DNA of 64,000 nucleotides from Sunxiuqinia elliptica (GTDB taxonomy: Bacteria > Bacteroidota > Bacteroidia > Bacteroidales > Prolixibacteraceae): contig NZ_FONW01000013.1 of the NCBI RefSeq assembly GCF_900113005.1, positions 62,001 to 126,000 on the forward strand, given 5' to 3'. Shown here piece after piece: positions 1 to 24,153 of this stretch. The notes beneath the pieces are model-generated. The model was not told where the DNA came from. It saw only the letters and a list, made by a program, of their open reading frames with translations, and did not search any database. Position numbers and translations under genes: made by a program. Within the stretch, counting starts at the first letter, position 1, and each line of letters opens with the position of its first letter.

Positions 1-11
1 CTGCTAGCGTT

Positions 12-1444: not shown

Positions 1445-1460
1445 CTTTTTTCAAACTTGT

Positions 1461-1600: not shown

Positions 1601-1615
1601 GCAACATGTGCTTTA

Positions 1616-2326: not shown

Positions 2327-2328
2327 AA

Positions 2329-3620: not shown

Positions 3621-3674
3621 ATTATTTAAATTAATTTCTCAATTTAGCAGACTATCATTTTGCATTGTTGCCAA

Positions 3675-3800: not shown

Positions 3801-3805
3801 TTTCG

Positions 3806-4354
3806 TTATTTATTCATTTTTATTGTCTTTACAATCTCCGCAACTAATTCCGATTGCTCGGTTGAAATTGAATCTCCAAAAATTGTTGCAGTCATTAATA
3901 TATGTCCTTTAATTGAATCTCCTTTTAGGATATACAAATACTGATTCCGTTGCATTTCTTCTGTCGAGTCGTAACCAGAGCTAAAATTAAAACTTGTTCG
4001 ATAATCACCTATTTTCCCACTTTTTTGCATTTGTGTTTTTAGTCCAACTGTTGCATTAAGAGAGTCAAGTGTTTGCTCCAGGTTAGGATTAATATAAACA
4101 GTATCTTGGTTCCAATTAATATTAACAATGATTGTGTTTTTCAATTCTCCCGTTGTGTCAGACGAGATAATCCCTGAAGAAAATTCGGTTGTATTAAATT
4201 CCTTTTTCCAATTATCGGGGAGTTTCACCTGAAATTTTCCATTCAAGTCAACAATGTTCCCCATTTTTAATTCAGATTCTTTATTCTCAGTCATGCATGA
4301 GAGCAAGAGAATAAAAATGATTAGAAACGATAATTTGAATGAAGGAATTCTCAC
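3806..4354 (-). CDS. Putative lipoprotein of unknown function
   Basis: The 182-residue product has an N-terminal signal with hydrophobic core FLIIFILLLSC and a lipobox cysteine at residue 20 followed by MTENKESE, so it is probably a lipoprotein. The mature part contains GKFQVKLPDNWKKEF (about residues 39-53) and long beta-strand-like stretches, resembling the PsbP/Mog1-like fold of DUF1795-type proteins. That resemblance is only structural guesswork. It stands alone on the minus strand, bracketed by GTTAGGC and GCCTAAC, and belongs to the accessory cassette-like region. Confidence 0.6.
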   Translation of the reverse strand: MRIPSFKLSFLIIFILLLSCMTENKESELKMGNIVDLNGKFQVKLPDNWKKEFNTTEFSSGIISSDTTGELKNTIIVNINWNQDTVYINPNLEQTLDSLNATVGLKTQMQKSGKIGDYRTSFNFSSGYDSTEEMQRNQYLYILKGDSIKGHILMTATIFGDSISTEQSELVAEIVKTIKMNK

Positions 4355-6343: not shown

Positions 6344-6376
6344 AAGCACTTATATTGATGATTTAAGCGCTTCTTT
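6344..6376. repeat. 33-nt repeat, copy 1 (copy 2 at 18882-18914)
   Basis: This element has the form AAGC(A/G)CTT, three variable bases, then 22 identical bases ending GCGCTTCTTT. The second copy is at 18882-18914 in the same orientation. AAGCGCTT is itself palindromic and pairs with the first half to make a hairpin. This copy overlaps the 3' end of the AraC regulator gene. The two copies bracket the 12.5-kb activase/ABC/Suf block. Confidence 0.65.
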
Positions 6377-7343
6377 TTCGGTAAGCAGCAGGGCTGATCT
6401 GGAACTTGCGTTTGAAAGCGGTGGTAAAATGAGAGGCATGCTCATAGCCTGATTGTTCGGCTATTTCGGCTATTGTGTATGGTGTTTGTTTTAATAAGTT
6501 TCGGGCAATATTCATGCGATATTCATAGATGTAACCATATATTGTCATCCCAAAAAGAAGTTTGAAACTTGCTTTTAACAGGGTTGCACTCATGCCAACG
6601 GCTAATGCGAGCTCATGAATTGACGGGGGATTTTTGAACTGTTTTTCAATAATATCTTTTGCTTGGTTAATCTGATCATTATAGTGTTGGTATCGAACAC
6701 AGTTACAGCATTGTTGATTGTCCTTCTGCTGTAGCTGGAGTAAGAAAAGCTCTTGAACTTTTGTGTCAAAATATAAAGGAGCAGTTTTCCCCATGAGCTG
6801 ACAGTTTTTTATTTGCTCAATTACTTGTTGCATTTCGGGTGTTGTAACATAATGCTGTTCGTGTAACAGCAGCGGACATTCTCCTTTTAATAATTTCATG
6901 ATCGGCTTTAATAGCTCCGGGTATTGCTCTTTTAGATTAAAAACATACTCAAATGGAATAAAAACCTTGAAATATTCGTAGTGCTTATTGCTGTTAAAGA
7001 AATGGTTAACTTCTGCATTTTGTAAAACAAAAATAGTATTCGTGTTTTTCTCCATGGTGTACGACTTGTTTGCCCCGTACGTTAAAGAGGTATTTCCATT
7101 AGAAACAAAATGAAGCAAAAGCATGTCACTTTCTGTTTTCCGATCTATTTGCAATTCGTTTTCTGATTTTAGTTGAACAAACTGCGCTTTAAATTTTTGC
7201 GTTGTCCATCCCGTTATAGCCATTTTGATAGGAGGAGTCTCAATGGTATCTTGAATGCTACAAAAAGGAACCTCTTTTATTGAATTCAGATCGTTCGTTT
7301 GAAAAACGTTCTGAATGTCTGCTGAGTCAATACAATACTTCAT
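6363..7343 (-). CDS. AraC-family transcriptional regulator (PchR/YbtA-like)
   Basis: With the start at the ATG at 7341-7343 the protein has about 326 residues; an upstream in-frame ATG at 7407-7409 would add 22 unconserved-looking residues. The N-terminal two thirds resembles the sensor part of siderophore-type AraC regulators. The C-terminal 100 residues hold two helix-turn-helix motifs, the first around LALAVGMSATLLKASFKLLF and the second around IAEIAEQSGYEHASHFTTAF. Such regulators (PchR, YbtA) usually activate metal or siderophore uptake genes when bound to their ligand. The gene is divergent from the operon starting at 7628, with 284 bp between, and is its probable regulator. The 3' end lies within a 33-nt repeat. 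Confidence 0.85.
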   Translation of the reverse strand: MKYCIDSADIQNVFQTNDLNSIKEVPFCSIQDTIETPPIKMAITGWTTQKFKAQFVQLKSENELQIDRKTESDMLLLHFVSNGNTSLTYGANKSYTMEKNTNTIFVLQNAEVNHFFNSNKHYEYFKVFIPFEYVFNLKEQYPELLKPIMKLLKGECPLLLHEQHYVTTPEMQQVIEQIKNCQLMGKTAPLYFDTKVQELFLLQLQQKDNQQCCNCVRYQHYNDQINQAKDIIEKQFKNPPSIHELALAVGMSATLLKASFKLLFGMTIYGYIYEYRMNIARNLLKQTPYTIAEIAEQSGYEHASHFTTAFKRKFQISPAAYRKRSA

Positions 7344-7627
7344 GTGCTTATTCTTGAGTATAAAAAACGGCCTTTGATTAAAGAAAGGTGTCTGTTGGCG
7401 TAATAACACCCACTTTGGCGGGTGCTACATTTGCCTTGTCAATTTTAACTAAGTCTAAATAAGAATATAAAAATAGGAAAGACTTAAGAGATCTCAAATC
7501 ACCAATAGTAGGGATTTTGACATAAGCGAGAAGGACTGCAAGACTGTACTTCCCCTATCATCAGGTAAGTATCGGCTTCTTGTAGCCGTATTTTGAAAGC
7601 TAAAAAAACATCACAAAAAATATAAAA

Positions 7628-10600
7628 ATGAGTACCTATAGTATCGGAATTGATATCGGATATTCTGCTATAAAGATAGCAATCATAGATAGTCAAAATA
7701 ATGTTGTCTTTACTGAATACCAGACGCATAAAGGACAAGTGAAAGATACGCTCGAATTGCTTTTTCTCCGGATTGATGAGAAAATCAGTATCTCGGAAAT
7801 AAAGCATGGAGCAATGACCGGTAGTTTGGGGCGGAATAGGATACAAGGAAGACTAATCCATCGTGTAAACGAGGTTGCTGCGGCTATCGAAGGAAGCGTT
7901 TTCTTGAATCCGGAAGTAAAGTCTATTATTGAAATTGGAGGGCAAAGTGCCAGATACTATACCGGCCTTAGTGGGCAGCAAGGAAATATCTTAAGAATTT
8001 CGAAAAGAAATAGGTTGCAGATGGCATCGAACTCGGACTGTGCTGCAGGTACAGGTTCGTTTTTGGAAGAGCAGGCGTCGCGACTAAACATCGACATCAA
8101 TCATTATTCCGAGTTTGTTCAAAGGGCAAAAACGGTTCCTCGAATAGCGGGTCGATGCAGTGTTTTTGCCAAGACTGACATTATTCACCATCAGCAGGAA
8201 GGGCTTCCTTCAGAAGATATTTTAAAAGGGGTTGCCTATGCCATTGTTAAAAACTACAAAGGAGCAGTAATTCGCCGTCTACCTGTTGAATCGCCCATGT
8301 TATTTATCGGTGGAGTTGCAAAAAATCAGGCAATTGTTGATGCGCTGAGAGATGTGTTGCATAAAACGGAGTCGGAACTAATCGTTCCCAAACATTTCGA
8401 TATTGCCAATTCGATTGGGGCTGCATTGATTGCAAAAAAGGAAAACTTCAGGTTGAATTTTCGAAAGGTTTTTTGGGATTGCTTAACTTTTGAAGAGGCA
8501 GCTAAAAAGCCCAATGGCGAAGATTTGGTTCCACTATCCCGGCTTGCTCAGGAAGATATTACAACAAAGCATGTCATTTCCCCTCGAAAAATAAACTCTT
8601 CGGAACAAGCTTTCTTTTTGGGAGTAGATATAGGCTCCACAAGTACCAACTTGGTTTTAATCAATCCTGATAGAGAAGTGGTAACTTTCGAATACATCAG
8701 AACCAAGGGAAATCCACTGAAAGCGGTTCAGGAGGGTTTAAAAAAAATTAGAAGTACGTTAACAGGGGAGTTCAAAATTTCCGGAGTCGGGATAACGGGA
8801 TCAGGGCGTAATTTCATTGGTCAACAGATCGGGGCCGATGTTATTAAGGACGAAATTACGGCGCAAGCAAAAGCAGCGGTAAAAATAGATCCGGAAGTAG
8901 ATACCATTTTCGAAATCGGAGGCCAGGATTCAAAGTACATAAGCATTACTAACGGGAGGGTTACCGATTTCCAAATGAATAAGGTTTGTGCTGCAGGAAC
9001 AGGCTCCTTTCTGGATGAGCAGGCGCAGGAGTTCAATATCCCTGTTGATGAACTTGGAACCTTGGCCTTCAAAGGAGCGCATCCGGTTGCTTTGGGAGAG
9101 CGTTGCACCGTTTTTATTAAAACAAGCATTGCCTCCAGCCTGTCGAAAGGAGAAAAAACAGAAGATATTGTTGCTGGCTTGTGCTATTCCATTGCAAAAA
9201 ACTACCTGTACAGGGTTGTTGGGCAAAAAAAGATTGGCAACAAAATTATGCTACAGGGCGGAATTGCTTTTAACCAGGGCGTAGCAAATGCATTTCGGAT
9301 TCTAACTCAAAAGCCAATAAGCACCACTCCTTTTTTTAGTGTGACCGGCGCTTATGGCGCTGCCCTTATTGCCCGCGATGAAATGAGGGGAAGGGAAACA
9401 AGTTTCATTGGGATTGAAAAATTGGGGCTTTTATCTCAGGAAAATGAAATACAAAAAACAGCAATTGAAGAGACGAATTCCGGCAATTTCAACAAGAAAA
9501 TAGGAGAAACCATATTTGATGATTACGACAATACAATAGACCCAGCGAAAAAAACGGTAGGCATACCAAGGGCTTTGTTTACCTATGGAATGTTTCCCAT
9601 GTTCAATGCCATTTTCAAAAAACTGGGATTTAACGTGCTGCTGTCTGATTGGAGCAATGAAGATACCATCAGGCTGGGACAGGAATTTGCCATGGAAGAG
9701 ACTTGCTTTCCTGTAAAATTAATTACCGGACATGTCGCTGAACTGGTTTCCAAAGGTGTTGATTATCTATTTTTTCCTGATTTGTACACGATTGATCATC
9801 CCGGTTCGCAGTCGCGCCAAAACTATGGCTGTGCCTATATGCAGCTGGCTTTTAAGATTGTCAGTCATACGATGGAACTCGAAAAGAAAGGGATAAAACT
9901 GTTAGCACCAACCATTGCCTTTAATCTGGGAAAAGACTTTATGCGGAAATCGTTTTCTAATTTGGGCGAACTCCTTGGGAAAAACGAGGCGGAAACCAAT
10001 GCTGCCCTTCAAAAAGGGATGGAGGCATTTCATCGTTTTGAAGAAAGGATTGCCGCAAATGGAAAAAAGGCCATGGAAAAGCTGGATCCAGGCAAAATCA
10101 CCTTTGTTATTGTGTCCAAAATGTATGGCGTGTCTGATCCGGTTTTAAACTTGGGAATTCCAGACAAATTGATGGATATGGGCTACCAGGTTGTTCCCTT
10201 TTTCGACCTACCCGAAGGTGCTGATGTTTCTAAAGAACACCCCAATATGTACTGGCCGTTTGGGCAACACATCCTTGAACCGGCTTACATGGTGAGGGAG
10301 CATCCCAACATGTTTCCCATTTTGTTGAGTCATCATGGCTGCGGCCCCGATTCGGTGTTGATTCATTATTTCAAAGAAATTATGGGTGATAAACCTTTCC
10401 TGAATATTGAAATCGACGAACATGCATCAACCATTGGGGTAACTACACGAATTGAAGCCTTTGTGAACAGCTTGAAAGTCAGTCAAACAAAGGAATCAAA
10501 ATCCACAGCTCATTATTTGGGAAAAGTAAATTATAAAAACTTGAATATTAAGCATCATTTGGCCGAGCTAAGTCCTGTTGCAAAAATATACCTTCCCAAT

Positions 10601-11650
10601 ATTTATCCTTATTCTGAACTTTTTAAAGAGCTGCTCATACAGAAAGGCTATAACGTCGATATTCTGAAAACCAATGCTCAAACGATTGGGGAAGGACGAA
10701 AACATACCTTAACCAACGAGTATTATTCATTAAGCTCGTTGTTGGGCGACTGCTTTAGTGTTGTCGAAAATACACCCGACAAACAGGGAATTACTTTTCT
10801 AATTCCGCAAACCGAGGGGGCCGAAGTAGAAGGCCAGTTCAATCGGATGTTGAGGACTAAACTCGATGAACAAAACTATCATGAGATCGAAATTGCATCG
10901 CCCTTTCTGGAAGATGCTGTTTCATTGGAATACGATGAGCTGAAGGCTGTCTTTTATTGCATCCTGGCCGGAGATATTGTAAATGTTGCTGCACCAGATT
11001 ACAAAGAAACTTCTCTTCAGAAGTTTAAAAAGCTGATACGCGATAAACAGCTAAACATTTCAAGCCTGAAAACAGCAGCTGAAGAAGTTTATGCCGTATT
11101 GAAAAAACGAACATATTCCAAAAGGGTACTGGCTATTGGCGAACCACAAATTATTTTTAACGACTTCCTGAATAGCTACACTTTTAACGCTCTGGAAGAG
11201 CAAAAGCATAAAGTTGTTTATAGCCCGCTTTCTGAAGCTGTCTGGATGTTTTGGGATGATTTTGTTAAGCAAAACAGATCGGGAGATGCTGTCTTCGCCA
11301 GTAAGTTAAAGGCATTGAAAAATGATATGCAAAACATCGCCCGACAACTAAACGATGAGAGCCCTTTTACGCCTGAAATTGAAACTCTTGTAACTAAGGC
11401 AGATGAAACAATTGGCCTTTATGCCGGAGCTTTTGCCCGTTACAGACAAGCCAAAGTACTGTGCAATTCCATTAAAATTGACGGTATTATTACCGCAACA
11501 TCGATGTATGAGAATACCGGTATTTCCCTCAATATTCTACACAAAGGATTTTCAAACGGAGATTCAAAACCAATACTGAATTTAACTTTTGACGGAAACA
11601 GCAATGAAAATGACAGGACTAAGGTCGAGTCATTTATTTATTATTTGTAA
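7628..11650 (+). CDS. Fused CoA-dehydratase-type activase (two BadF ATPase domains) with HgdB/DUF2229-like region
   Basis: This is a 1340-residue multidomain protein. ATPase domain 1 (about 4-270) starts IGIDIGYSAIKIAIID and has cysteines C138 (CAAGTGSFLEEQ) and C177 (GRCSVFAKTD). Domain 2 (about 328-585) starts LGVDIGSTSTNLVL and has C454 (CAAGTGSFLDEQ) and C493 (GERCTVFIKTS). In HgdC-type activases a homodimer holds one [4Fe-4S] cluster with two cysteines from each subunit; here the tandem copies could make an intramolecular pair. From about residue 640 onward lies a DUF2229/HgdB-like region with C693 (ETCFPVK), C735 (NYGCAYMQ) and C905 (HHGCGPDS). Such proteins use ATP hydrolysis to drive low-potential electrons into a reductase. 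The real substrate is unknown. It is first in an operon with transport and Suf-like genes. Confidence 0.9.
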   Translation: MSTYSIGIDIGYSAIKIAIIDSQNNVVFTEYQTHKGQVKDTLELLFLRIDEKISISEIKHGAMTGSLGRNRIQGRLIHRVNEVAAAIEGSVFLNPEVKSIIEIGGQSARYYTGLSGQQGNILRISKRNRLQMASNSDCAAGTGSFLEEQASRLNIDINHYSEFVQRAKTVPRIAGRCSVFAKTDIIHHQQEGLPSEDILKGVAYAIVKNYKGAVIRRLPVESPMLFIGGVAKNQAIVDALRDVLHKTESELIVPKHFDIANSIGAALIAKKENFRLNFRKVFWDCLTFEEAAKKPNGEDLVPLSRLAQEDITTKHVISPRKINSSEQAFFLGVDIGSTSTNLVLINPDREVVTFEYIRTKGNPLKAVQEGLKKIRSTLTGEFKISGVGITGSGRNFIGQQIGADVIKDEITAQAKAAVKIDPEVDTIFEIGGQDSKYISITNGRVTDFQMNKVCAAGTGSFLDEQAQEFNIPVDELGTLAFKGAHPVALGERCTVFIKTSIASSLSKGEKTEDIVAGLCYSIAKNYLYRVVGQKKIGNKIMLQGGIAFNQGVANAFRILTQKPISTTPFFSVTGAYGAALIARDEMRGRETSFIGIEKLGLLSQENEIQKTAIEETNSGNFNKKIGETIFDDYDNTIDPAKKTVGIPRALFTYGMFPMFNAIFKKLGFNVLLSDWSNEDTIRLGQEFAMEETCFPVKLITGHVAELVSKGVDYLFFPDLYTIDHPGSQSRQNYGCAYMQLAFKIVSHTMELEKKGIKLLAPTIAFNLGKDFMRKSFSNLGELLGKNEAETNAALQKGMEAFHRFEERIAANGKKAMEKLDPGKITFVIVSKMYGVSDPVLNLGIPDKLMDMGYQVVPFFDLPEGADVSKEHPNMYWPFGQHILEPAYMVREHPNMFPILLSHHGCGPDSVLIHYFKEIMGDKPFLNIEIDEHASTIGVTTRIEAFVNSLKVSQTKESKSTAHYLGKVNYKNLNIKHHLAELSPVAKIYLPNIYPYSELFKELLIQKGYNVDILKTNAQTIGEGRKHTLTNEYYSLSSLLGDCFSVVENTPDKQGITFLIPQTEGAEVEGQFNRMLRTKLDEQNYHEIEIASPFLEDAVSLEYDELKAVFYCILAGDIVNVAAPDYKETSLQKFKKLIRDKQLNISSLKTAAEEVYAVLKKRTYSKRVLAIGEPQIIFNDFLNSYTFNALEEQKHKVVYSPLSEAVWMFWDDFVKQNRSGDAVFASKLKALKNDMQNIARQLNDESPFTPEIETLVTKADETIGLYAGAFARYRQAKVLCNSIKIDGIITATSMYENTGISLNILHKGFSNGDSKPILNLTFDGNSNENDRTKVESFIYYL

Positions 11651-11655
11651 CGAGT

Positions 11656-12165
11656 ATGCAAGCGAAGAAAACAATGGTAATAACAATAATGATAATAGGT
11701 GTGCTGGCTTTGTCCCTTTCGATTTGGGCATATACCAAAGGCGTTCACATTGCCGGTTTTAAGAGTGCCTTGAAAATGGGGTTGCGTATTTTCCCAATCA
11801 TGTTTTTCACTTTCATTATTATCGGGATGGTCAGCAGTATTGATTTAAGTAGCGGCATTCAGAAAACTTTAGGAAATGACTCAGGGATTTCAGGAATTGC
11901 AATTGCCTCTTTGGCGGGCATGTTAACTCCTGGTGGAACTTTCGTAGCACTATCGGTTGGCGGAACACTCATAAAATCAGGGGCAGGAATAAGTCCTGTT
12001 GTGGCCTATATGGTTGCTTTTTCGACATGGGATTTAACCCGTACTCCATTCGAAATCGGTTTTATGGGATGGAAATATGTGCTGGTAAAATGGTGCTGCA
12101 TTTTGATACTGCCGTTCATCGGTGGGCTGATTGCAAAGTTGTTGTTTTCATGGGTCAATTTTTAA
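11656..12165 (+). CDS. Small permease-like membrane protein
   Basis: The 169-residue product has four or five membrane helices (about residues 7-27, 40-62, 78-105, 112-130 and 143-166). The segment LAGMLTPGGTFVALSVGG at about residues 87-104 has the look of a half-size YraQ/DUF318-type permease, with a re-entrant Gly/Pro loop. The ATG follows the stop of the activase gene by only 5 nt, so the two are co-transcribed. It could carry a metal or small compound related to the neighbouring ABC transporter. The family assignment is tentative. Confidence 0.6.
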   Translation: MQAKKTMVITIMIIGVLALSLSIWAYTKGVHIAGFKSALKMGLRIFPIMFFTFIIIGMVSSIDLSSGIQKTLGNDSGISGIAIASLAGMLTPGGTFVALSVGGTLIKSGAGISPVVAYMVAFSTWDLTRTPFEIGFMGWKYVLVKWCCILILPFIGGLIAKLLFSWVNF

Positions 12166-12180
12166 AAAAAAACTAAAATC

Positions 12181-13965
12181 ATGTTCAAGAATAAATCATT
12201 AAAATTCCTGATTACAATTTCCCAAAGAGGGAAATACCGCCTGGGGACTGCGGCTTTGCTTATCTTTTTTAGTTCGATCTGTTCGCTGGGACCATATTAT
12301 ATTACTTATCTCATCATCGATAACATTATCAACCCGCCTTTTATAATGGCGGAATTGCTATCGCTCGGCGGAATTGCAGCTTTGTTCATTATCGGGCAAA
12401 TGATTTTTTCCGGCATCGCAATGACCCAGTCTCATATTGCGGCATACGATATTTTATTCGATTTGCGTGTTGCTCTTACTCAAAAATTAAGCCGGCTTCC
12501 ACTGGGGTATTATTCCAGTACCAGCTCTGGGACCATCAAGAAAATTATGATGGGAAATATTGAGGATATTGAAGAGTTTGTAGCACACAATCTGGTCGAT
12601 CTAATTTCGGTCGTTTTCCTCCCGATAATCATTTTTTTGTGGTTAGCTTCTTTTAGCCTTTCCTTGGCAATATTAAGCATCCTTCCGGTTCTTGTAGGAG
12701 TTGGCTTACAGCGGTTCCGAATGAAGCTGGAAGCGGGGAATATTCAAAAGTTCTTCAAAATAAAATCGGACATGAATACGACCATCATTGATTTTATTCG
12801 GGGGATGCCGGTGATAAAAGCTTTTAATCTTTCGGTTTTTTCGTTTAAAAAATACCGCGAAGAAGCCGACAGGTACAGCCAGTACTGGATTGATATGAAT
12901 AAAAAAGCTGCTGCTTTTTTTGCTACTTATGCTTTACTGATGGATTGCGGTGTGTTAGTGCTTCTTCCTGCTGGCGGATATATGTATGCTACGGGAAGAA
13001 TTGCATTGTCTACTTTTCTTATGTTCCTGTTTATTGGCATCGGGCTTACTCGCTTTATGAAGCAGTTAACAAGTTTCGGCTCAAATTTGACTCAAATTTT
13101 TAAAGGTGTTGATGAACTAAGGACGGTGTTGGAGGCAGCCGAAATCGACAACAACGGGTCAATTACTATACTGAAGAATTACGATCTTGATTTCAAGCAT
13201 GTTTCGTTTGGCTATGGCCGAAACTTGGTTCTTGATGATGTGTCGTTCCGATTGAAACAAGGAACCATTACAGCATTGGTGGGGCCATCGGGGGCCGGAA
13301 AAACCACTGTTGCCAGGTTAATCCCTCGTTTCTGGGATGTTACTCGAGGTGAAATTATCCTGGGGGGCCACAAGCTGAAAGACATTCAGGGAGATGTATT
13401 AATGAAGCATGTCAGTTTTGTTTTTCAGGATATTTTCATGTTCAACGATACGGTGATTGAGAATATCCGAATGGGGGATACTTCCATTTCTGAAGAAAAA
13501 GTAATAGAGATTGCCCAACAGGCGCAAGCTGATGAATTTATTCAGAAGCTGGGAAACGGGTACCACACGGTTATTGGAACAACAGGAGTTCATCTAAGTG
13601 GTGGCGAACAACAGCGCATCGCTATTGCTCGGGCATTGGCAAAAAACTCACCGGTAATTGTACTTGATGAAGCAACCAGCTATGCCGATACCGAGAATGA
13701 AGACAAAATTCAAAAGGCACTGAATGAGCTGTTAAAGGACAAAACCGTAATTGTGATTGCCCACAGGTTATCTACCATTCAGAATGTCAATCAAATCCTT
13801 TATATCGAAAAAGGAAAGATTATGGAACAAGGCAGTCATCAGCAGTTAATAAACGAAGGTGGCAGGTACAAACGAATGTGGGATTTACATATGGATGCTG
13901 TTCATTGGGGAATAAAACAAGCCACAGAATCAAAAAATAGAAGAAAGGAGGGAATCGCATGTTAG
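12181..13965 (+). CDS. ABC half transporter, exporter fold (first of pair; YbtP/IrtA-like)
   Basis: This 594-residue protein has an N-terminal domain of six membrane helices (about 20-320) and a C-terminal nucleotide-binding domain. Walker A GPSGAGKTT lies near residues 367-375, the signature LSGGEQQRIAIARAL near 472, and Walker B VIVLDEATSYAD just after. The D-loop sequence SYADTENE, with a shortened coupling region, resembles importer-type exporters of siderophore systems (YbtPQ, IrtAB). It pairs with the following gene, which overlaps its end by 7 nt, so the two probably form a heterodimer. Together with a PchR-like regulator this suggests movement of a metal chelate or peptide-like cofactor; direction cannot be told from sequence. 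Confidence 0.88.
   Translation: MFKNKSLKFLITISQRGKYRLGTAALLIFFSSICSLGPYYITYLIIDNIINPPFIMAELLSLGGIAALFIIGQMIFSGIAMTQSHIAAYDILFDLRVALTQKLSRLPLGYYSSTSSGTIKKIMMGNIEDIEEFVAHNLVDLISVVFLPIIIFLWLASFSLSLAILSILPVLVGVGLQRFRMKLEAGNIQKFFKIKSDMNTTIIDFIRGMPVIKAFNLSVFSFKKYREEADRYSQYWIDMNKKAAAFFATYALLMDCGVLVLLPAGGYMYATGRIALSTFLMFLFIGIGLTRFMKQLTSFGSNLTQIFKGVDELRTVLEAAEIDNNGSITILKNYDLDFKHVSFGYGRNLVLDDVSFRLKQGTITALVGPSGAGKTTVARLIPRFWDVTRGEIILGGHKLKDIQGDVLMKHVSFVFQDIFMFNDTVIENIRMGDTSISEEKVIEIAQQAQADEFIQKLGNGYHTVIGTTGVHLSGGEQQRIAIARALAKNSPVIVLDEATSYADTENEDKIQKALNELLKDKTVIVIAHRLSTIQNVNQILYIEKGKIMEQGSHQQLINEGGRYKRMWDLHMDAVHWGIKQATESKNRRKEGIAC
13945..13951 (+). promoter_or_regulatory. Strong Shine-Dalgarno sequence AAGGAGG
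   Basis: AAGGAGG lies 7 nt before the ATG of the second ABC half transporter, within the end of the first ABC gene. It fixes the start at 13959. Such strong sites are unusual in Bacteroidota, where most genes have none. Confidence 0.7.
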
Positions 13966-15686
13966 AAGTGATGAACTTAATTGCAGGGAAATACCATAAC
14001 CGCATGGTTCGGGTAACCTTGATATCAATTTTTGAGGCCATTTTAGGGGCTGTTCCGTTTGTCGTTTTGTATTTCCTTTTATGCAATATTATTGACCATA
14101 CATTTACCTTGCAAAAGCTTCAAGTGTACATTGGTTTTATTGCTGGAAGCGCTGTCTTTAGAATGTTGTTTTCTTATTTAAGTGTAACTGTTTCCCGTGC
14201 AGATGGGACTTTAATGGTTAAAGATTTAAGATTAAGACTGGGGGAACATATCCGAAAACTTCCATTGGGCTTCTTTAGCAGTCATGATACGGGCGAATTG
14301 TCCAATAAAACACTCGATCATGTAAATAAGGTAGAGCAAATTATAACCATGCTTTTGCCCGAATTCATCTCCACATTGGTACTGAGCATACTGGTCGCTA
14401 CGGGGCTGTTTTTCATCGATTATCGCATGGCGTTGGCAACAGTAATTACCATGCCTTTGGCTTTAGGCTTGTTGGTTTGGGCTAAAAAAATAATGCATGT
14501 AAGGGGCAAAGCTTTGTATGAATCTTCATCGGCTTTGGCCAACAGTATTATTGAATTTGTTAATGGCATCAAGTTTATTAAATCGTTCAACAATTCCCAC
14601 CAAAAAATGGACGATCTGGTCGGTAAAATGGACGATTTTAAAAAAAGAAGCCTGAAAGTTGAGGGGATCTTAAGCCCCGTGATGACCTTGTCTGGTATAT
14701 CCATCGATTTTGGACTCGTTATGTTGATATTAATGGGGGCGAGCTTTATGGCTGGTGGAAGCCTGAGTGGAAAAACGTTTATCGTTTTTGTTATTATCAG
14801 CTCCCGTTTTTTTGAGAATCTGAAATCTCTTTCAATCAATTATGTGAAAATACGTTACCTGCTAATTGCCGGTCAAACCATTCAAAGTTTGTTCAACGAA
14901 AAACAGCTTACCGGCAATAAAACCAATGTCGATTTAAGCAAACAAGACATTGTATTTGATGATGTTTCGTTTGGATACAATAAAACAAGAGTACTGAAGA
15001 GCATTAATGTTACCATTCCTCATGGTTCAATGACGGCATTGGTGGGGCCTTCCGGTTCCGGAAAATCGACTATGGCAAACCTTATTGCCCGATTTTACGA
15101 TGTAAACAACGGAAGTATTTGTATTGGAAATAATAAATTGGAAGATGTTGACCCTGAGAAAATTTTACAGGAAATAAGTATGGTGTTTCAAAAGGTTGTC
15201 TTGTTTAAAGATACCATTTACAACAATCTTAGGATTGGAAAACAGCATGCCAGCAGAGAAGAAGTGATTGATGCTGCTAAAAGGGCAAATTGTCACGAGT
15301 TTATTACCAAATTGCCTGATGGCTACGACACAATGGTTGATGAAAACGGAGGTAACTTGTCGGGTGGAGAACAGCTGCGGCTTTCCATTGCCCGGGCCAT
15401 GCTGAAGGATGCTCCCATTGTTCTGCTTGATGAGGCAACATCTTCATTGGACCCGGAAAACGAATTCTTTATTCAGGAAGCAATTTCCAATCTATTAGGA
15501 AATCGGACAGTGGTCGTCATTGCTCACCGGCTGAAAACCATTAAAAATGCCGATAAAATTATTGTACTCAGCAACGGGGAGATTTGCGAAGAAGGTACCC
15601 ACCGTAGCTTATTGAAGAAGCAAGGCTTGTACCATAAAATGTGGCAAACCCAGGAAAGCACCGTCGGCTGGAAGATTACAAACTAA
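13959..15686 (+). CDS. ABC half transporter, exporter fold (second of pair; YbtQ/IrtB-like)
   Basis: This 575-residue protein has six membrane helices (about 15-300) and an ATPase domain with Walker A GPSGSGKST near residue 362, signature LSGGEQLRLSIARAM near 467, and Walker B IVLLDEATSSLD. Its start codon lies inside the last codons of the preceding ABC gene (ATGTTAG, 7-nt overlap) and is preceded by AAGGAGG, which supports this start and coupled translation. With the upstream gene it should form a heterodimeric transporter in the inner membrane. No periplasmic binding protein or TonB receptor is encoded within the same operon. Confidence 0.88.
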   Translation: MLEVMNLIAGKYHNRMVRVTLISIFEAILGAVPFVVLYFLLCNIIDHTFTLQKLQVYIGFIAGSAVFRMLFSYLSVTVSRADGTLMVKDLRLRLGEHIRKLPLGFFSSHDTGELSNKTLDHVNKVEQIITMLLPEFISTLVLSILVATGLFFIDYRMALATVITMPLALGLLVWAKKIMHVRGKALYESSSALANSIIEFVNGIKFIKSFNNSHQKMDDLVGKMDDFKKRSLKVEGILSPVMTLSGISIDFGLVMLILMGASFMAGGSLSGKTFIVFVIISSRFFENLKSLSINYVKIRYLLIAGQTIQSLFNEKQLTGNKTNVDLSKQDIVFDDVSFGYNKTRVLKSINVTIPHGSMTALVGPSGSGKSTMANLIARFYDVNNGSICIGNNKLEDVDPEKILQEISMVFQKVVLFKDTIYNNLRIGKQHASREEVIDAAKRANCHEFITKLPDGYDTMVDENGGNLSGGEQLRLSIARAMLKDAPIVLLDEATSSLDPENEFFIQEAISNLLGNRTVVVIAHRLKTIKNADKIIVLSNGEICEEGTHRSLLKKQGLYHKMWQTQESTVGWKITN

Positions 15687-15754
15687 CAATGTGGTTACAT
15701 ACTAATTCTGACAAGTTGCTGAAATCAGTCAGGATTCCTAAATAATAAAATGTG

Positions 15755-16525
15755 ATGCTAACAATCAATAATTTACATGTAAGTGTGAAACAAAAGGAAG
15801 TGCTAGGAGGAGTTAATCTGAGTATTCCGGAAAATGAAGTCCACGCGCTTTTTGGAGCAAATGGCTCTGGGAAGAGTGTTTTAATCTCTACAATTATGGG
15901 GTATCCCGAATACAAAGTTACTCGTGGTGAAATTCTGTTTCGCGGACAAAATATTACGGAGCTAAACATCGATGAAAGAGTAAAGTTGGGGCTGGGTATT
16001 TCAGAGCAACGTCCTCCGACAATAAAAGGGGTAAAATTAGAGTACCTCGTAAATTTGCTTGCTCCCGAAAAGATGAACGATGAGACATTCAGGATAAAAA
16101 TGCTGGAGCATTTCGGAATGGATAAATTTCTTAATCGCAATATAAATGATGGCTTTTCGGGCGGAGAAATAAAAAAATCAGAGTTGTTTCTGTTGTTATT
16201 GACCAGACCGGATTTTTTAGTATTGGATGAACCAGACTCAGGGGTTGATCCTGAGCATCTAAAAATGATTGGGGCAATGATAACTGAAATATTGCAAAAG
16301 AAAAAACAGGAGGGAGAAAGGTGCAATCCGCAAGCTCGGAGCTCAGGCCTAATTGCTACCCATTCGGCTGAAATTCTAAACTATATCCATACCGATAAGG
16401 CTCATATTATGCTTGATGGGAAAATTTGTTGCAGTGGAAATCCGGCTGTTATGATGGAGCAAATAAGGGCACTGGGCTACAGTTATTGTATCGAATGTCA
16501 ACATGCTAATCAGGAGGAACACTAA
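15755..16525 (+). CDS. SufC-like ABC ATPase (Fe-S cluster assembly type)
   Basis: The 257-residue soluble ATPase, counted from the ATG at 15755 (a GTG one codon upstream is also possible), has Walker A GANGSGKS at residues 34-41, signature FSGGEIKKSE at 134-143 and Walker B FLVLDEPDSGVD at 154-165. The FSGGE-x-KK signature and DEPDSGVD are typical of SufC rather than transporter ATPases. Compared with standard SufC there is an insertion, rich in Lys and with a Cys, after Walker B (about residues 178-195). Its stop overlaps the start of a SufB/D-like gene as TAATG. In the Suf system SufC powers a SufB/SufD scaffold that builds Fe-S clusters. This compact pair is the minimal type seen in anaerobes, and other suf genes are absent from the window. 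Confidence 0.88.
   Translation: MLTINNLHVSVKQKEVLGGVNLSIPENEVHALFGANGSGKSVLISTIMGYPEYKVTRGEILFRGQNITELNIDERVKLGLGISEQRPPTIKGVKLEYLVNLLAPEKMNDETFRIKMLEHFGMDKFLNRNINDGFSGGEIKKSELFLLLLTRPDFLVLDEPDSGVDPEHLKMIGAMITEILQKKKQEGERCNPQARSSGLIATHSAEILNYIHTDKAHIMLDGKICCSGNPAVMMEQIRALGYSYCIECQHANQEEH
16512..16517 (+). promoter_or_regulatory. Strong Shine-Dalgarno sequence AGGAGG
   Basis: AGGAGG lies 7 nt before the ATG of the SufB/D-like gene, inside the end of the SufC-like gene. It decides the start codon at 16525. This is the second such site in the same operon. Confidence 0.7.
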
Positions 16526-17742
16526 TGGAACAATTCGCAGGAATAATGCAAGATGCAAAAATGCAAAAGAATGAGGCAGGCGTGGACTATTCCCGGTTTG
16601 ACAATATTGAAGAAGCTGGGAATTCTTTTAGTTCTTTTGAGAATTTATCATTAAATAATGAAGATCTAGGCTCGTTAAAAGCAGTAGGTATTCATTTGTT
16701 TGATAATGCTTCTCCTGGAAAGTTTTTAATGTATGGTGCTGATGTTTACAGGTCAATTCCTCAAATCCCCGGAGTTGAGATAATTCCTTTAAAAGAAGCA
16801 TTCAAAATTTACCCTGAAATAAAAGAGAAGTATTATTTCAGGGCAGTTGATAAAGAGCAGGATGAATTTACTCAAACCGCTTTTAACGAGGCGGCAAACG
16901 GCTATTTTATTCGCGTAAAAGAAAATGTGATTGTGGATGAACCGATGCAAACGGCCATGTTTATGCATCGGGAAATGAGTACCATGTGTATCCATAATAT
17001 TGTGGTATTGGAAGATGGGGCGCAACTGAATTTAATTACAGGCTGTACTTCGGGATGCTCGCTTAAAGGTGGATTGCATATTGCCGTAAGCGAACACTTT
17101 ATTGGCAAAGGGGCAAAATTAACCAACACGATGATTCACAACTGGGGGGCTGACTTTGTTGTGCATCCTCGAACAGCTACTATCGTTGACGAAAATGGTC
17201 GATTTGTTAGTAATTACTATTCAGTAAAACCTCCGAAATACATTGAAAATAATCCATCTACTTATTTGAGAGGAAAAGGTGCTAATGCCAAATATTTGAC
17301 CGTTTTGGCATCATTTCCTGGTACATACTGCGATATTGGGGGAACGGTTTTGATGGAAGGTGAAAATACCGGAGCTGAACTGGTCGCGAGAGCTGTGAAT
17401 CATGGCGGAACAGTCATTCAGACTGGCTTGTTGATCGGAGCCGCAAAAAACGCGAGGGCGCATGTCGACTGTTCTGGACTAATGTTGAGCGATAAGGGGA
17501 TTATAGAAGCAATTCCGGGCTTAAGAGCAGCTCATCCTGAAGCCAGAATGTCGCATGAAGCCGCTATTGGAAGAATTGATATGGGGGAAGTAAACTACCT
17601 GCAGTCGAAAGGACTGGACGAAATGCAGGCCATTGCTTTAATTGTCCGTGGATTTTTGGATGTCGACATCGAAGGAATGGATGATGAACTAAGGAAGACG
17701 ATTCGAGAGATATCGGAACTTTCGGGACATGGAGAAGACTAA
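16525..17742 (+). CDS. SufB/SufD-family scaffold-like protein
   Basis: The 405-residue protein has the SufB/D beta-helix core in its C-terminal half, with NHGGTVIQTGLLIGAAKNAR (about residues 292-311), a cysteine at 316 (AHVDCSGLML) and the diagnostic RMSHEAAIGRI (341-351, Glu345). A second family region VNYLQSKGLDEMQA follows. In E. coli the equivalent area of SufB supplies the cluster-forming Cys and Glu. Several extra cysteines occur earlier (155, 174, 178, 269). It overlaps the SufC-like gene by one base, so a SufC2-SufB2-like complex is expected. Because the pair lies in an activase operon, it may serve a dedicated client such as the upstream Fe-S ATPase rather than general cluster supply. 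That is inference. Confidence 0.88.
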   Translation: MEQFAGIMQDAKMQKNEAGVDYSRFDNIEEAGNSFSSFENLSLNNEDLGSLKAVGIHLFDNASPGKFLMYGADVYRSIPQIPGVEIIPLKEAFKIYPEIKEKYYFRAVDKEQDEFTQTAFNEAANGYFIRVKENVIVDEPMQTAMFMHREMSTMCIHNIVVLEDGAQLNLITGCTSGCSLKGGLHIAVSEHFIGKGAKLTNTMIHNWGADFVVHPRTATIVDENGRFVSNYYSVKPPKYIENNPSTYLRGKGANAKYLTVLASFPGTYCDIGGTVLMEGENTGAELVARAVNHGGTVIQTGLLIGAAKNARAHVDCSGLMLSDKGIIEAIPGLRAAHPEARMSHEAAIGRIDMGEVNYLQSKGLDEMQAIALIVRGFLDVDIEGMDDELRKTIREISELSGHGED

Positions 17743-17760
17743 AATTAAACTTCGAATACC

Positions 17761-18243
17761 ATGGAAAATTGTAATAAAATAGTTTTGGTTACTCATTGCC
17801 TGTTGACAAAGGGATTTTCGCCTCAATATCGAAATGACATGAAAGAGGTTTTGTACGAATTGCTTGATTGTGGGGCAGGAATCATTCAGATTCCATGCCC
17901 CCATTTGATCATGTTATGTGAGGGTAAGGAACGAAAAACCGGTTTCAATTCCTTATTGGGGAAGCTTTCAAGCCAGAGTTTAGACAATTTATATTCAAGA
18001 GCCTTGTCTCCTTTTGTAAAGGAAGTTGAAGAATATAAGAAACAAGGTTTTGAGATATGCGGAATAGTGGGAGTAAAAAATTCTCCTGCATGTGAAATAA
18101 AGGGTATAGAAGAGAACTCAAACTATAAGCAGGGGACATTTATGGAAATATTGAAACGGAAACTTAAAGAAAAAGCCATACAGACCAATATGGTAAATGT
18201 AAATATTCCTTCAGAATGCTATATCTCGGAAAATAATCAATAG
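17761..18243 (+). CDS. TudS-related putative Fe-S desulfidase (CD3072-like)
   Basis: The 160-residue soluble protein has THCLL near the N-terminus (C13), GIIQIPCPHL (C46) and GVKNSPACEIKG (C111). This spacing of three cysteines with HC, PCP and SPxC contexts matches the TudS/DUF523-related family, where three cysteines bind a [4Fe-4S] cluster that takes up sulfide from thiolated substrates such as thiouracil. The present protein belongs with the CD3072-like subgroup, whose substrate is not known. It is the seventh gene of the operon, 18 nt after the SufB/D-like gene, so yet another Fe-S protein is encoded by this cluster. Confidence 0.75.
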   Translation: MENCNKIVLVTHCLLTKGFSPQYRNDMKEVLYELLDCGAGIIQIPCPHLIMLCEGKERKTGFNSLLGKLSSQSLDNLYSRALSPFVKEVEEYKKQGFEICGIVGVKNSPACEIKGIEENSNYKQGTFMEILKRKLKEKAIQTNMVNVNIPSECYISENNQ

Positions 18244-18247
18244 AAAT

Positions 18248-18865
18248 ATGAAAAAATATAAACAAGAAAATCAGGCTGTTATACACAAACACCGGACACA
18301 CCGAAAACGAGGCCCTAGTAGTTTTAATATGCATGATTCAGCCTTAGTCTTTGAAAAATTAAACATTAAAAAAGCAGATGTTTTTGTAGACTTGGGCTGT
18401 GGCTCCGGGGATTATTCGTTATTGGCTGCCCAGCTAGTGAGCCCTTTGGGTAAAGTGTATGCGATGGATATTTGGAGCGGGATGCTTACTGAAATCGAAA
18501 ACGAAGCCAGTCGCTTGGAACTTGACAATGTAATAACAATTGAAAACGATATTTGCCAGACAATCCCCCTCGATGATAACTGTGCCGATCATTGCCTTCT
18601 AGCGACAGTAATGCATGCCCAAAAGTTGACAGCTAAATGCAAGCGTCTTTTTCCTGAAATAAGCAGAATACTAAAACCTGGAGCTCAGTTAGCAGTCATT
18701 GAGTGCAAAAAAGAGGAAATGCCTTTTGGACCTCCTCTAAGTATGCGCATTTCTCCTGAGGAGTTGGAAGTAAGACTTTCCCAATATGGGTTAAAGAAAA
18801 CTGCTTATATTGATTTGGGATGTAATTATATGCTGTTGTTTGAGTTGATAGCTGGTTTTGATTGA
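18248..18865 (+). CDS. Class I SAM-dependent methyltransferase
   Basis: The 205-residue protein has motif I VFVDLGCGSGDYS at residues 45-57, an acidic residue at the end of the second strand (YAMDIWSGML), and an NDICQTIPLDDNCAD segment for the third. This is a UbiE/type-11-like fold. A basic N-terminus (KHRTHRKRGP) precedes it. It starts 4 nt after the stop of the TudS-like gene and is the last gene of the operon. The substrate cannot be told; a thiol, arsenic, or cofactor-type substrate would be in keeping with the neighbours. The repeat at 18882-18914 with a hairpin follows 16 nt after the stop and may end the transcript. Confidence 0.85.
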   Translation: MKKYKQENQAVIHKHRTHRKRGPSSFNMHDSALVFEKLNIKKADVFVDLGCGSGDYSLLAAQLVSPLGKVYAMDIWSGMLTEIENEASRLELDNVITIENDICQTIPLDDNCADHCLLATVMHAQKLTAKCKRLFPEISRILKPGAQLAVIECKKEEMPFGPPLSMRISPEELEVRLSQYGLKKTAYIDLGCNYMLLFELIAGFD

Positions 18866-18881: not shown

Positions 18882-18914
18882 AAGCGCTTGAGTTGATGAT
18901 TTAAGCGCTTCTTT
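18882..18914. repeat. 33-nt repeat, copy 2, terminator-like
   Basis: This is the second copy of the element at 6344-6376, in the same orientation. Here the arms AAGCGCTT and AAGCGCTT pair perfectly around a 13-nt loop and a CTTTGTTT tail follows, so it can act as a terminator for the methyltransferase operon. It lies 29 bp beyond the stop of the next, convergent gene. Confidence 0.65.
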
Positions 18915-20120: not shown

Positions 20121-21392
20121 TTAAGCCTGGCGCTTACTCAATTGTTCAGTTTCATAGTGCTGAATGGTTTTGATAAAGTCTTCGCCTACGGGAACGCCTT
20201 CTTTGAGGCAATAGTAGTCCCAAATGGCTCCAAAAGGCTTGGTTTTAAGTTCCTCCAACAAGGCTAAGCGCTCAAAGAGTTGTCCTTTTTCTTCCAGCGA
20301 CTTTAGTTGGTCGGTTGGTTCAAGCAAGGCAATTAGAAATGCTTTTTGGGCAGCGCGCGTTCCAACCACATAAGCACCAATCCGGTTGATGGATGCATCG
20401 AAGAAATCGAGCCCAATGTTAACCCGGTCGAGGAAGTTGTTGCGAATCACTTCAGAAGCGATTAACTGCACTTCTTCATTTAGGGTCACCACATGATCCG
20501 AATCCCAGCGAACAGGACGGGTCAGGTGGAGGAGGACTTCATCAACAAACTGCAGGCAGGCGGATAGTTTGTCTCCAACTTGCTCTGTTGGGTGGAAGTG
20601 TCCGTTGTCCAGGCAAATCAGCTTGTTGTTTTGAATGGCATAGCCCAGGTAAAAGTCATGCGAGCCAACCGTCATTGATTCAGCACCAATCCCAAAGAGC
20701 TTGCTTTCAACGGCATCTTTCATGTATTCTTTGGGGTAGTCGATGCTCATCGCTTCATCGAGCGATTGTTTTAGCAGCGTCCGGTGTCCATTCCGGTCAA
20801 TGGGCGTGTCTTTTGATCCGTCCGGAATCCAGGTATTGTGAATGCATGGCGTGCCAAGTTGTTTCCCAACCTCAGCAGCTATTGCCCGGCATCGTTTGAC
20901 ATGTTCCACCCAAAAGCGGCGATTTACCTCGTTTTTGCTCGATAAGGTGAAGCCATCGGCAGCCTTGGGATGAGAAAAGCAGGTTGCGTTGAAATCCATG
21001 CCAATGCCTTGTTGTTTGCACCAATCAATCCAACTCTGAAAGTGTTTGGGGTCTATCTGATCGCGATCAACAAGCTCTCCACCGAAATCGCCGTAAATGG
21101 CGTGTAGGTTTAGGCGTTGGCTGCCGGGAAGCAAGGACAAGACTTTTTCCAGGTCTTGGCGCATTTCAGAAATCGAGCTCGCCTTACCCGGATAATTGCC
21201 CGTGGCCTGAATACCGCCGCCTGAAAGTGTCGCATCAGGAGTTTCAAAGCCCCCCACATCGTCGGTTTGCCAGCAGTGCAATGAAATAACAACCTGGTTT
21301 ATTTGTTCCAACACTGCATCGGTATCAACACCTAACTCAGCATAAGCCGTTTTGGCGAGTTGGTATGCTTTTTCAATCTGATTTTTATTCAT
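20121..21392 (-). CDS. rhaA: L-rhamnose isomerase
   Basis: The 423-residue enzyme converts L-rhamnose to L-rhamnulose in the cytoplasm. The sequence closely follows the RhaA family from end to end, including VISLHCWQTDDVGGFE, GGGIQATGNYPGKASS, DFNATCFSHPKAADGFTLSS, ESKLFGIGAESMTVGS, DNGHFHPTEQ and RPVRWDSDHVV, where His and Asp residues bind the metal ions. Length is as expected. It is the last gene of the minus-strand operon rhaT - GH78 - rhaA, 17 nt after the rhamnosidase gene, and is probably induced by the divergent AraC regulator. The next steps of the usual pathway (rhamnulokinase and aldolase) are not encoded in this window. Confidence 0.97.
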   Translation of the reverse strand: MNKNQIEKAYQLAKTAYAELGVDTDAVLEQINQVVISLHCWQTDDVGGFETPDATLSGGGIQATGNYPGKASSISEMRQDLEKVLSLLPGSQRLNLHAIYGDFGGELVDRDQIDPKHFQSWIDWCKQQGIGMDFNATCFSHPKAADGFTLSSKNEVNRRFWVEHVKRCRAIAAEVGKQLGTPCIHNTWIPDGSKDTPIDRNGHRTLLKQSLDEAMSIDYPKEYMKDAVESKLFGIGAESMTVGSHDFYLGYAIQNNKLICLDNGHFHPTEQVGDKLSACLQFVDEVLLHLTRPVRWDSDHVVTLNEEVQLIASEVIRNNFLDRVNIGLDFFDASINRIGAYVVGTRAAQKAFLIALLEPTDQLKSLEEKGQLFERLALLEELKTKPFGAIWDYYCLKEGVPVGEDFIKTIQHYETEQLSKRQA

Positions 21393-21409
21393 TTTTCTTG
21401 TTTTTGGGG

Positions 21410-24133: not shown

Positions 24134-24153
24134 ATGTTGTGTTATTTAGTTGG

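Follow-up and report, generated by a model that had tools for sequence, protein, structure and literature searches.

A Bacteroidales operon joining an activase fusion, a YbtPQ-type ABC pair and an SMS-type Fe-S scaffold is a candidate system for the uptake and processing of a metal- or sulfur-bearing complex

Introduction

What could a bacterium do with a single operon that encodes a giant activase fusion, an ABC transporter, a scaffold pair for Fe-S cluster assembly, a TudS-related protein and a methyltransferase? The question is raised by a locus of Sunxiuqinia elliptica, located in a stretch of 64,000 nucleotides that was analysed as a whole (the window), and it bears on how anaerobes build clusters from iron and sulfur that are locked in complexes. 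No paper on this gene set was found in the open-licence text of PMC. The explanation that we favour, though with a little less than even confidence, is that these genes together take up and process a complex bearing metal, sulfur or both; we infer its substrate and chemistry from the sequences.

Results and Discussion

The operon is conserved in four Bacteroidales genomes

Eight open reading frames follow one another on the forward strand from position 7628 to position 18865 of the window, together with a divergent regulator gene, as an earlier note on this DNA had described. That note also had several of the genes overlapping by 1–7 nt: overlaps are present, but at two of the seven junctions only, the distances being 5, 15, −7, 65, −1, 18 and 4 nt in the 5′ to 3′ order of the genes. 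The regulator (6363–7409, reverse strand) belongs to the AraC family by its HTH (HTH_18, 81.4 bits), the sole part of the protein that matches Pfam; as judged by eye from a relative (locus L035), its true start probably lies 22 codons downstream of the GTG at 7409. A terminator-like hairpin of 13 pairs followed by a T-rich tail (18882–18910, forward strand) stands just 3′ of the last stop codon at 18865; because the region holds 14 such sites against 11.9 expected, this hairpin alone is weak evidence. No RNA family was found at gathering score within the window.

The core gene order recurs in three further Bacteroidales genomes (four including the window) and is thus conserved beyond one species. 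This conservation rules out chance neighbours and bears out the proposal that the transport and Fe-S proteins form one functional unit. Relative to the window counterparts, identity in the operon genomes is 79–84% for the ABC pair, 70–76% for the SmsC- and SmsB-type proteins and 56–64% for the activase fusion (hereafter ACT); the permease is 54–58% identical in the three relatives. The methyltransferase gene is found in all four operons, and the TudS-related gene is absent from one of them (G456). In three of the four, the operon starts with genes for a TonB-dependent receptor and an AhpD-like CMD protein, both missing from the window, and orthologues of the AraC regulator are encoded divergently from the receptor gene in G002 (55% identity) and G455 (45%). 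In the genome of the window strain, the best receptor elsewhere is about 30% identical, over parts only. Compared with ZnuD and with heme and siderophore receptors, the operon receptor shows weak likeness, over the plug, with 72 bits at best. No relative was found in the viral contigs searched.

The ABC pair resembles a metallophore importer

The two ABC genes (ABC1, 12181–13965, and ABC2, 13959–15686, both on the forward strand) encode half-transporters that had been proposed to be of the metallophore type. This assignment held: among the half-transporters in the PDB matches listed, ABC1 best fits YbtP (6p6i chain A, 317.8 bits) and ABC2 best fits YbtQ (6p6i chain B, 307.6 bits), in a ranking that covers half-transporters, two-domain P-glycoproteins having higher total scores. 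For both, Sav1866 and MsbA are poorer matches than the importer YbtPQ. YbtP is likewise the best fit of the ABC1-type genes at loci L041 and L042 (359.1 and 367 bits), and the second half-transporter of L042 matches TM_0288 (273.5) slightly above YbtQ (270.1). YbtPQ is presented in part of PMC10967856 as the importer of yersiniabactin, a ligand of Fe, Cu, Co and Ni. The likeness to YbtPQ (and IrtAB) extends to the arrangement as two adjacent half-transporter genes, each best matching its counterpart, and to the TonB receptor of three of the four operons, a role that FyuA has for YbtPQ. In contrast, identity is only about 34% (ABC1 against plasmid-borne ybtP/ybtQ), the operon is without siderophore synthesis genes (scans of the operon genes gave none for metallophore synthesis), and it is coupled to Fe-S genes. 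Because a TonB receptor and CMD open the operon in three relatives, an uptake system is the best reading.

The type IV exporter fold of the ABC pair could alternatively serve detoxification: the transporter, the ArsP-like permease and the methyltransferase would expel metal(loid)s or thiol adducts, and the Fe-S parts would repair damage. ArsP_1 permeases export organoarsenicals, and the half-size permease of the operon (169 aa; 11656–12165, forward strand), which carries a TPGGxF motif, matches ArsP_1 (PF03773) with 33.8 bits for a cut-off of 32.3. An ArsP-family permease combined with ABC transport is also reminiscent of the SAO (selenocysteine-assisted organometallic) system; however, the SaoE match is 26 bits against a cut-off of 325, a superfamily likeness only. 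The product of the last gene (18248–18865, forward strand) is a class I SAM methyltransferase (PF13847, 60.8 bits) whose match to arsenite methyltransferase (PRK11873) is 59.5 bits against a cut-off of 263. The SaoE and arsenite methyltransferase matches, weak as they are, point towards detoxification, but both scores are far below their cut-offs, the TonB receptor of three operons favours import, and both half-transporters are closer to YbtPQ than to Sav1866 or MsbA. We consider detoxification quite unlikely.

The scaffold pair is SMS-type and is linked to the importer

The two genes that follow had been described as a SufC and SufB/D pair. The protein families stand: the SufC-like ATPase (15752–16525, forward strand) scores 197.6 bits with TIGR01978, below the cut-off of 212.8, and its partner (16525–17742, forward strand) scores 124.6 bits with SUFBD_core (cut-off 27). 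The SUF type does not, as (i) the ATPase bears a C-terminal CX18CX2C motif (C227, C246 and C249), present in six of six members, and (ii) in a tree of the partner, the operon clade of six (support 100/100) groups among bacterial SmsB, with the SUF rows separate (100/99). This tree has 21 rows, 9 of 15 SUF loci having yielded a usable one, and the program warns of long branches. The partner also matches 4dn7 (E 1.3e-79) and MJ0034 (E 5e-19). The cysteine motif and the tree rule out a SUF duplicate. We name the pair SMS-type, and not certified SmsB, because the curated NCBIfam SmsB profile gives 163.5 bits against a cut-off of 650.

SMS has been described as a general cluster machine kept mostly in archaea. 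The operon pair is similar to SmsC2B2 in comprising just two genes, in the C-terminal CXnCXXC of SmsC, and in having neither a SufD partner nor a desulfurase in the operon (profile scans found no cysteine desulfurase among its genes). It differs in lying inside an uptake operon, in forming its own clade and in coexisting with a further SufC-type gene, of which each of the six genomes of the clade has one. In the five Bacteroidota, the final 60 residues of this further protein contain no cysteine; in G458, the tail of the protein is SMS-like. The cysteines that hold the cluster in methanogen SufC are spaced as in CX18CX2C, as given in part of PMC12584684, and a portion of PMC12192291 states that M. 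jannaschii SMS takes sulfide and needs no cysteine desulfurase.

Members of the SmsCB clade have an ABC pair akin to ABC1/ABC2 no more than about 1.5 kb away in all six genomes; for plain SmsCB in the phylum to which G458 belongs, this holds at none of six loci. At two of the six loci, the related ABC pair is present but no activase (G457 has no activase fusion at E 1e-10, and G458 has other fusions elsewhere in its genome). The bond of SmsCB with the importer is therefore at least as strong as that with the activase, and these two loci speak against applying to the activase the suggestion of the earlier note that this pair loads the clusters; SmsCB may work for the cell as a whole. Since six genomes link this bacterial pair to an ABC importer, it offers a direct way to ask whether a dedicated transporter can feed cluster assembly.

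The activase fusion of the operon forms a separate subfamily

ACT (1340 aa; 7628–11650, forward strand) is an activase/DUF2229/HgdB-like fusion with two activase domains (two BcrAD_BadFG stretches), DUF2229 and modules A and B. A role as activase for some known 2-hydroxyacyl-CoA dehydratase with its subunits elsewhere is ruled out: the genome has no HGD-D match at E 0.001 and no other activase above the cut-off. ACT keeps the activase and DUF2229 cysteines, and module A has Cys693, Cys735 and Cys905. In module B, for which homology extends over the full length, all three family cysteines are lost, with Tyr1032, Glu1066 and Glu1295 (Tyr/Glu/Glu) in their place: they are present in none of the four operon proteins, against 12 of 12 stand-alone fusions. 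From column invariance, an invariant Tyr/Glu/Glu in four related proteins is expected by chance about 1 time in 20. Four linker cysteines are also lost from all four operon proteins; Cys1042 and Cys1111 of module B are gained in all four, so that this module may still hold a different cluster.

Non-operon fusions occur in 25 genomes; 14 neighbourhoods were examined and 12 entered the cysteine count, from which L064 (on a 3.6-kb contig) and L103 (a split gene) were left out. Neither SmsCB nor the ABC pair was found in any of these 14 neighbourhoods (one on the contig of only 3.6 kb); L100 and L102 each gave one ABC-ATPase match, of a different kind. On these sequence comparisons, the operon ACT is a distinct subfamily with its own cysteine pattern. 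This separation in four of four operons, and the lack of SmsCB and the ABC pair around the other fusions, indicate that ACT evolved with the operon. The same observations argue against a stress or starvation backup, that is, an iron-uptake operon carrying SmsCB as a second Fe-S machine for iron-poor or sulfide-rich times, with ACT as an unrelated small-molecule reductase sharing the regulator. Such a backup would fit the further SufC-type gene of each of the six genomes, the divergent AraC regulator and the gene for a ZnuA-type metal-binding protein (246.3 bits) after SmsB in L042; it appears decidedly unlikely. The ZnuA-type gene also speaks for the uptake reading that we favour.

An AlphaFold model of the C-terminal half of ACT, from a four-row alignment, is poor, with a mean pLDDT of 53. 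With this model, Foldseek ranked an unrelated lyase first, with no match under E 0.001, followed by 2-hydroxyisocaproyl-CoA dehydratase (3o3m_B, probability 0.99) and BzdNO (8s02_B, 0.96); we do not take this ranking as proof. No hhalign match was obtained between operon modules A and B, or between the TudS-like proteins and the ACT modules. ACT shares with the family of DCCP and its reductase, benzoyl-CoA reductase and 2-hydroxyacyl-CoA dehydratase the activase cysteines, the three-Cys site of module A and, in its stand-alone relatives, the two HgdB-like modules; it differs in joining all parts in one chain and in the loss of the module B and linker cysteines. With its lost cluster site, ACT is a natural experiment on the gain of new substrates in the benzoyl-CoA reductase/DCCP family.

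This kinship speaks for a catabolic reductase: the ABC pair would import a thiolated or aromatic organic compound, the fusion would reduce it in the manner of benzoyl-CoA reductase, with steps by the TudS-like protein and the methyltransferase, and SmsCB would merely mature Fe-S enzymes. There is precedent in the benzoyl-CoA reductase family, of which TudS is a partial relative and in which sub-cluster loss created new active sites, as set out in part of PMC11971306. However, SmsCB and the related ABC pair occur together without ACT at two of six loci, the ABC pair is YbtPQ-type, and the operon genes include no CoA ligase and no further catabolic gene. A catabolic role thus seems unlikely.

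The TudS-related protein and a proposed route

The TudS-related gene (17761–18243, forward strand) encodes a CD3072-like protein (TudS_rel_CD3072, NF045597; 94.2 bits, below the cut-off of 130). The cluster cysteines C13, C46 and C111, equivalent to Cys10, Cys43 and Cys104 of TudS, are retained in three of three TudS-like proteins. When placed by eye on the cysteine spacing, the catalytic Glu45 of TudS is replaced by His48 in all three operon proteins, Ser101 is kept as Ser108, and the equivalent of Ser103 is not conserved. Relatives of CD3072-TudS adjoin the importer component CD3073 in four of four records, in Cetobacterium with a TonB receptor as well. CD3072-TudS and the ECF importer component CD3073 (Cetobacterium, Enterococcus, Acetoanaerobium) also link a TudS-related protein with an importer. 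Unlike in the operon, their transporter is of another class and their annotated neighbours are without SmsCB or activase; the operon protein has PCPH for PCPE.

In the uptake-and-processing system that we favour, the complex would cross the outer membrane via the TonB receptor, or via a different one in the window strain, and then the inner membrane via ABC1/ABC2. The two activase domains would use ATP to deliver low-potential electrons via a bridging [4Fe-4S] to the module A cluster. Module B, presumably without the usual cluster owing to its Tyr/Glu/Glu, would bind the imported complex, which would be reduced and opened. The freed iron would pass to SmsC2B2, along with sulfide provided that the TudS-like protein remains able to desulfurise. 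Capping and export of the spent ligand would fall to the methyltransferase and the ArsP-like half permease. Several observations count against this scheme: the receptor gene missing from the window strain, the weak likeness of the operon receptor to characterised ones, the lack of metallophore synthesis genes, the altered catalytic residues of the TudS-like protein and its absence from G456, the cysteines gained by module B, the chance level of Tyr/Glu/Glu invariance and the slight preference for TM_0288 in L042. A closed version of this scheme, leading from import to cluster, would start from a thio-metal compound (a thiolated metallophore or a soluble iron-sulfide complex) and combine receptor and YbtPQ-type uptake, ATP-driven metal reduction by a reductase whose second cluster site would have turned into an oxygen-ligand metal-binding site, sulfide release by the TudS-like protein and [4Fe-4S] assembly on a private SmsC2B2. 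We hold this full route to be improbable; if true, it would, within the literature searched, couple a dedicated importer genetically with a dedicated Fe-S scaffold for the first time.

HydG was rejected as a part of the system, as it is found in one of the four operons (G456) and its nearest relative, in G458, lies in an apparently ordinary hydrogenase-maturation cluster (judged by eye). This second HydG of G456 is real, the other copy in that genome being 45% identical. HypB is present in the G455 operon.

Conservation and rarity of the operon

The positions that the earlier note had given for eight rightward genes (7628-18865) and a divergent AraC regulator (6363..7409, minus strand) were confirmed, and its family names agree with the family scans. 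The operon proteins score below the curated cut-offs of the NCBIfam models for SufC, SufB, SufD, SmsB and TudS-related proteins, and above the Pfam cut-off for SUFBD_core. Successive genes are joined at junctions of 5, 15, -7, 65, -1, 18 and 4 nt, and a 13-pair hairpin with a T-rich tail lies 3' of the last stop codon, such sites being without clear excess in the region.

The same note had proposed a search for this gene set in other genomes. A one-genome-per-species collection (84,980 species, from which the window's own genome may have been excluded) was scanned with two SmsB peptide motifs, yielding 52 stretches and five relatives: three further Bacteroidales that carry the operon (G002, listed in the window's genus, G455 and G456), a Bacteroidetes MAG (G457, locus L041) and a Spirochaetes-labelled MAG (G458, locus L042). 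Identity to the window is 80–84% for the half-transporter ABC1 and 79–83% for ABC2, 70–76% for SmsC and 71–73% for SmsB, 56–64% for the activase fusion (ACT), 54–58% for the permease, 39–51% for the methyltransferase and 35–36% for the TudS-like protein, whose gene is present in three of the six genomes and absent from G456, G457 and G458.

In G002, G455 and G456, ACT is preceded by genes for a TonB-dependent receptor of 740–758 aa and a CMD protein of 114 aa; the G455 and G456 receptors are both 65% identical to the one in G002. The receptor and AraC genes diverge in G002 and G455; in the stretch read for G456 no AraC match was found, a MarR gene lying upstream instead. The window has neither a receptor nor a CMD gene between AraC and ACT, and no orthologue of the receptor was found in its genome, the best match reaching ∼30% over parts. 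PepSY_TM genes lie downstream of the operon in G002 and upstream in G456. Additional genes in G455 encode a PEMT-like protein and the hydrogenase nickel insertion GTPase HypB (L039:12512-13273; TIGR00073, 276.6 bits for a cut-off of 121.2), the HypB gene lying between the PEMT-like gene and the TudS-like gene, which comes after it. Those in G456 encode HydG (433.6 bits, cut-off 312), TetR, PEMT-like and ferredoxin-like proteins. G456 has two HydG genes (L040:11873-13399 and G456:C43:83277-84656), one directly 3' of the operon methyltransferase, with the PEMT-like and ferredoxin-like genes further along; this operon-side HydG is nearest (62%) to that of G458.

Apart from the window's genome, SmsB of this clade was found in 1 of 60 near relatives (G002). 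A sample of 392 further genomes of the order yielded no match at E 1e-60, and a sample of 394 further genomes of the phylum a single one at E 1e-30, with 29% identity. The operon is accessory and patchy. As the five other carriers all bear MAG in their titles, binning error is possible, particularly for L042, whose contig is 19.6 kb long.

The ABC pair resembles YbtPQ

In the PDB listings, where two-domain P-glycoproteins reach higher total scores, the half-transporter that best matches ABC1 is YbtP (6p6i chain A, 317.8 bits), followed by IrtA (281), Sav1866 (268), MsbA (257) and YbtQ (252), and the one that best matches ABC2 is YbtQ (6p6i chain B, 307.6 bits), followed by a bacteriocin exporter (289), Sav1866 (284), IrtA (261) and YbtP (258). 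The pairs at the activase-free loci are 41–42% (L041) and 35–41% (L042) identical to ABC1 and ABC2. YbtP is again the best match of their ABC1-type proteins (359.1 and 367 bits), and the L042 ABC2-type protein matches TM_0288 (273.5 bits) and YbtQ (270.1) nearly equally; in L042 a single small gene separates the pair from SmsC. The TonB-dependent receptor matches ZnuD over the plug (72 bits) and receptors for heme, enterobactin and copper with lower scores, which by sequence points at most to a metal or metal complex. Because the ABC pair fits YbtPQ and the relatives' operons include a TonB receptor, import is favoured, and an import role of the operon is fairly well supported.

The Spirochaetes-labelled contig (L117) bears two ABC1/ABC2-related pairs (378-3988 and 11630-15140) on the same side of SmsCB, and a ZnuA-type gene lies 3' of its SmsB.

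A distinct SMS-type scaffold pair

The solved protein nearest to SmsB is 4dn7 (E 1.3e-79), a Methanosarcina protein whose entry gives no more than ABC transporter protein as its name; it is followed by MJ0034 of M. jannaschii (E 5e-19) and by SufB entries. The ATPase body of SmsC scores higher with solved SufC 2d2e (162 bits) than with M. jannaschii MJ0035 (134 bits), and what marks SmsC as SMS-like is its tail, CX18CX2C (C227, C246, C249), invariant in all six proteins. In archaeal SmsC/SufC, three C-terminal cysteines bind [4Fe-4S], by structure or mutants, and M. jannaschii SMS functions with sulfide in E. coli, as described in two 2025 papers (PMC12192291, PMC12584684).

Each of the six genomes has one further SufC-type gene (E 1e-25), whose product has no cysteine in its tail in the five Bacteroidota. 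That of G458 (L141, G458:C64) has its own SMS-like cysteine tail, and therefore G458 may use SMS in place of SUF. In a 21-row tree, for which the program gave a long-branch warning, the six operon-type SmsB form one clade (100/100) within bacterial SmsB, with the SUF rows apart. In the phylum to which G458 belongs, SmsB was detected at E 1e-45 in 7 of 296 genomes. Apart from G458, these carry plain SmsCB pairs, with no match to a half-transporter pair, ACT, TudS-like protein or methyltransferase within the 12–20 kb read, and two of these six loci (L114, L115) have an ABC ATPase of a different kind nearby.

Cysteine sets of the activase fusion and the TudS-like protein

ACT (1340 aa) was compared with 12 stand-alone fusions from the same bacterial family. 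The activase cysteines (138, 177, 454, 493) and three cysteines of the DUF2229 module, module A (693, 735, 905), are retained in all four operon proteins and all 12 stand-alone ones. The C-terminal module B is homologous over its full length (hhalign 99.7%, 350 columns, 17% identity), and three cysteines found there in 12/12 stand-alone proteins correspond to Tyr1032, Glu1066 and Glu1295 in 4/4 operon proteins, an invariance that alone is weak evidence because these four agree in 37% of module B columns. Four linker cysteines are gone from the operon proteins, and Cys519, Cys1042 and Cys1111 are new in all four; as two of these lie within module B, another metal site there is possible. Modules A and B of the stand-alone proteins are mutually homologous (94.8%), whereas homology between those of the operon proteins is no longer detectable with hhalign. 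In benzoyl-CoA reductase, BzdO holds its cluster through Cys95, Cys128 and Cys380; the authors of that study attribute new functions of the family to sub-cluster loss (PMC11971306). By analogy with the BzdO pattern, the three-cysteine sets of ACT would hold clusters.

At E 1e-60, ACT occurs in 27 of 140 genomes of the family, the window's included. None of 14 neighbourhoods read, out of 25 of non-operon type, has SmsCB, the ABC pair, a TudS-like gene or the methyltransferase near ACT, one contig being too short to tell.

Cys13, Cys46 and Cys111 of the TudS-like protein have the spacing of the TudS cluster ligands Cys10, 43 and 104. However, the catalytic Glu45 of TudS is His48 in all three operon proteins, and the Ser103 equivalent is unconserved (TudS residues as numbered in PMC10611767). 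Relatives were found in nine plasmid records; in the four that were read, the TudS-related gene adjoins a CD3073 ECF importer component (annotated in three records, a 56% match in Acetoanaerobium), and TudS-related proteins of the CD3072 kind therefore accompany importers. Two Enterococcus records show the CD3072/CD3073 pair within a selenocysteine gene cluster with selA, selB, selD and yedF, which hints that the substrate of such importers is possibly a sulfur or selenium compound. On a Cetobacterium plasmid (L149:11444-17031), an ECF importer operon with a CD3072 TudS-related gene is followed by a convergent TonB-dependent receptor gene.

A putative uptake and delivery function

The most economical account is that the operon takes up a metal- and/or sulfur-bearing complex, reduces it and delivers the products to a scaffold. 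The imported complex would be processed by an ATP-driven reductase, and its products would be handed to a private scaffold requiring iron and sulfide only. Support is moderate for the reductase role of ACT and weak for a sulfide role of the TudS-like protein; that the permease and methyltransferase export the ligand is a guess. Several observations speak against this account: the window strain lacks the receptor, the operon contains no genes for metallophore synthesis, the TudS-like protein has an altered site and is not encoded in one operon genome, and module B has new cysteines. Within the limits of the open literature collection searched, no paper on the gene set as such was found.

The window is part of a genome of 5.09 Mb in 26 contigs and spans 62001-126000 of contig C22. 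Upstream of the operon, positions 1-4000 have low GC (32–34%) and carry SMI1/KNR4 (SUKH) and ParA-type genes, possibly representing mobile or island DNA. Adjacent to the operon on the other side lie L-rhamnose utilisation genes (20121-25182, minus strand; RhaA, alpha-L-rhamnosidase, RhaT), and beyond them a glycan utilisation region (26410-58472) with an ECF sigma factor, a TonB-linked receptor, SusD, GH92 and GH2.
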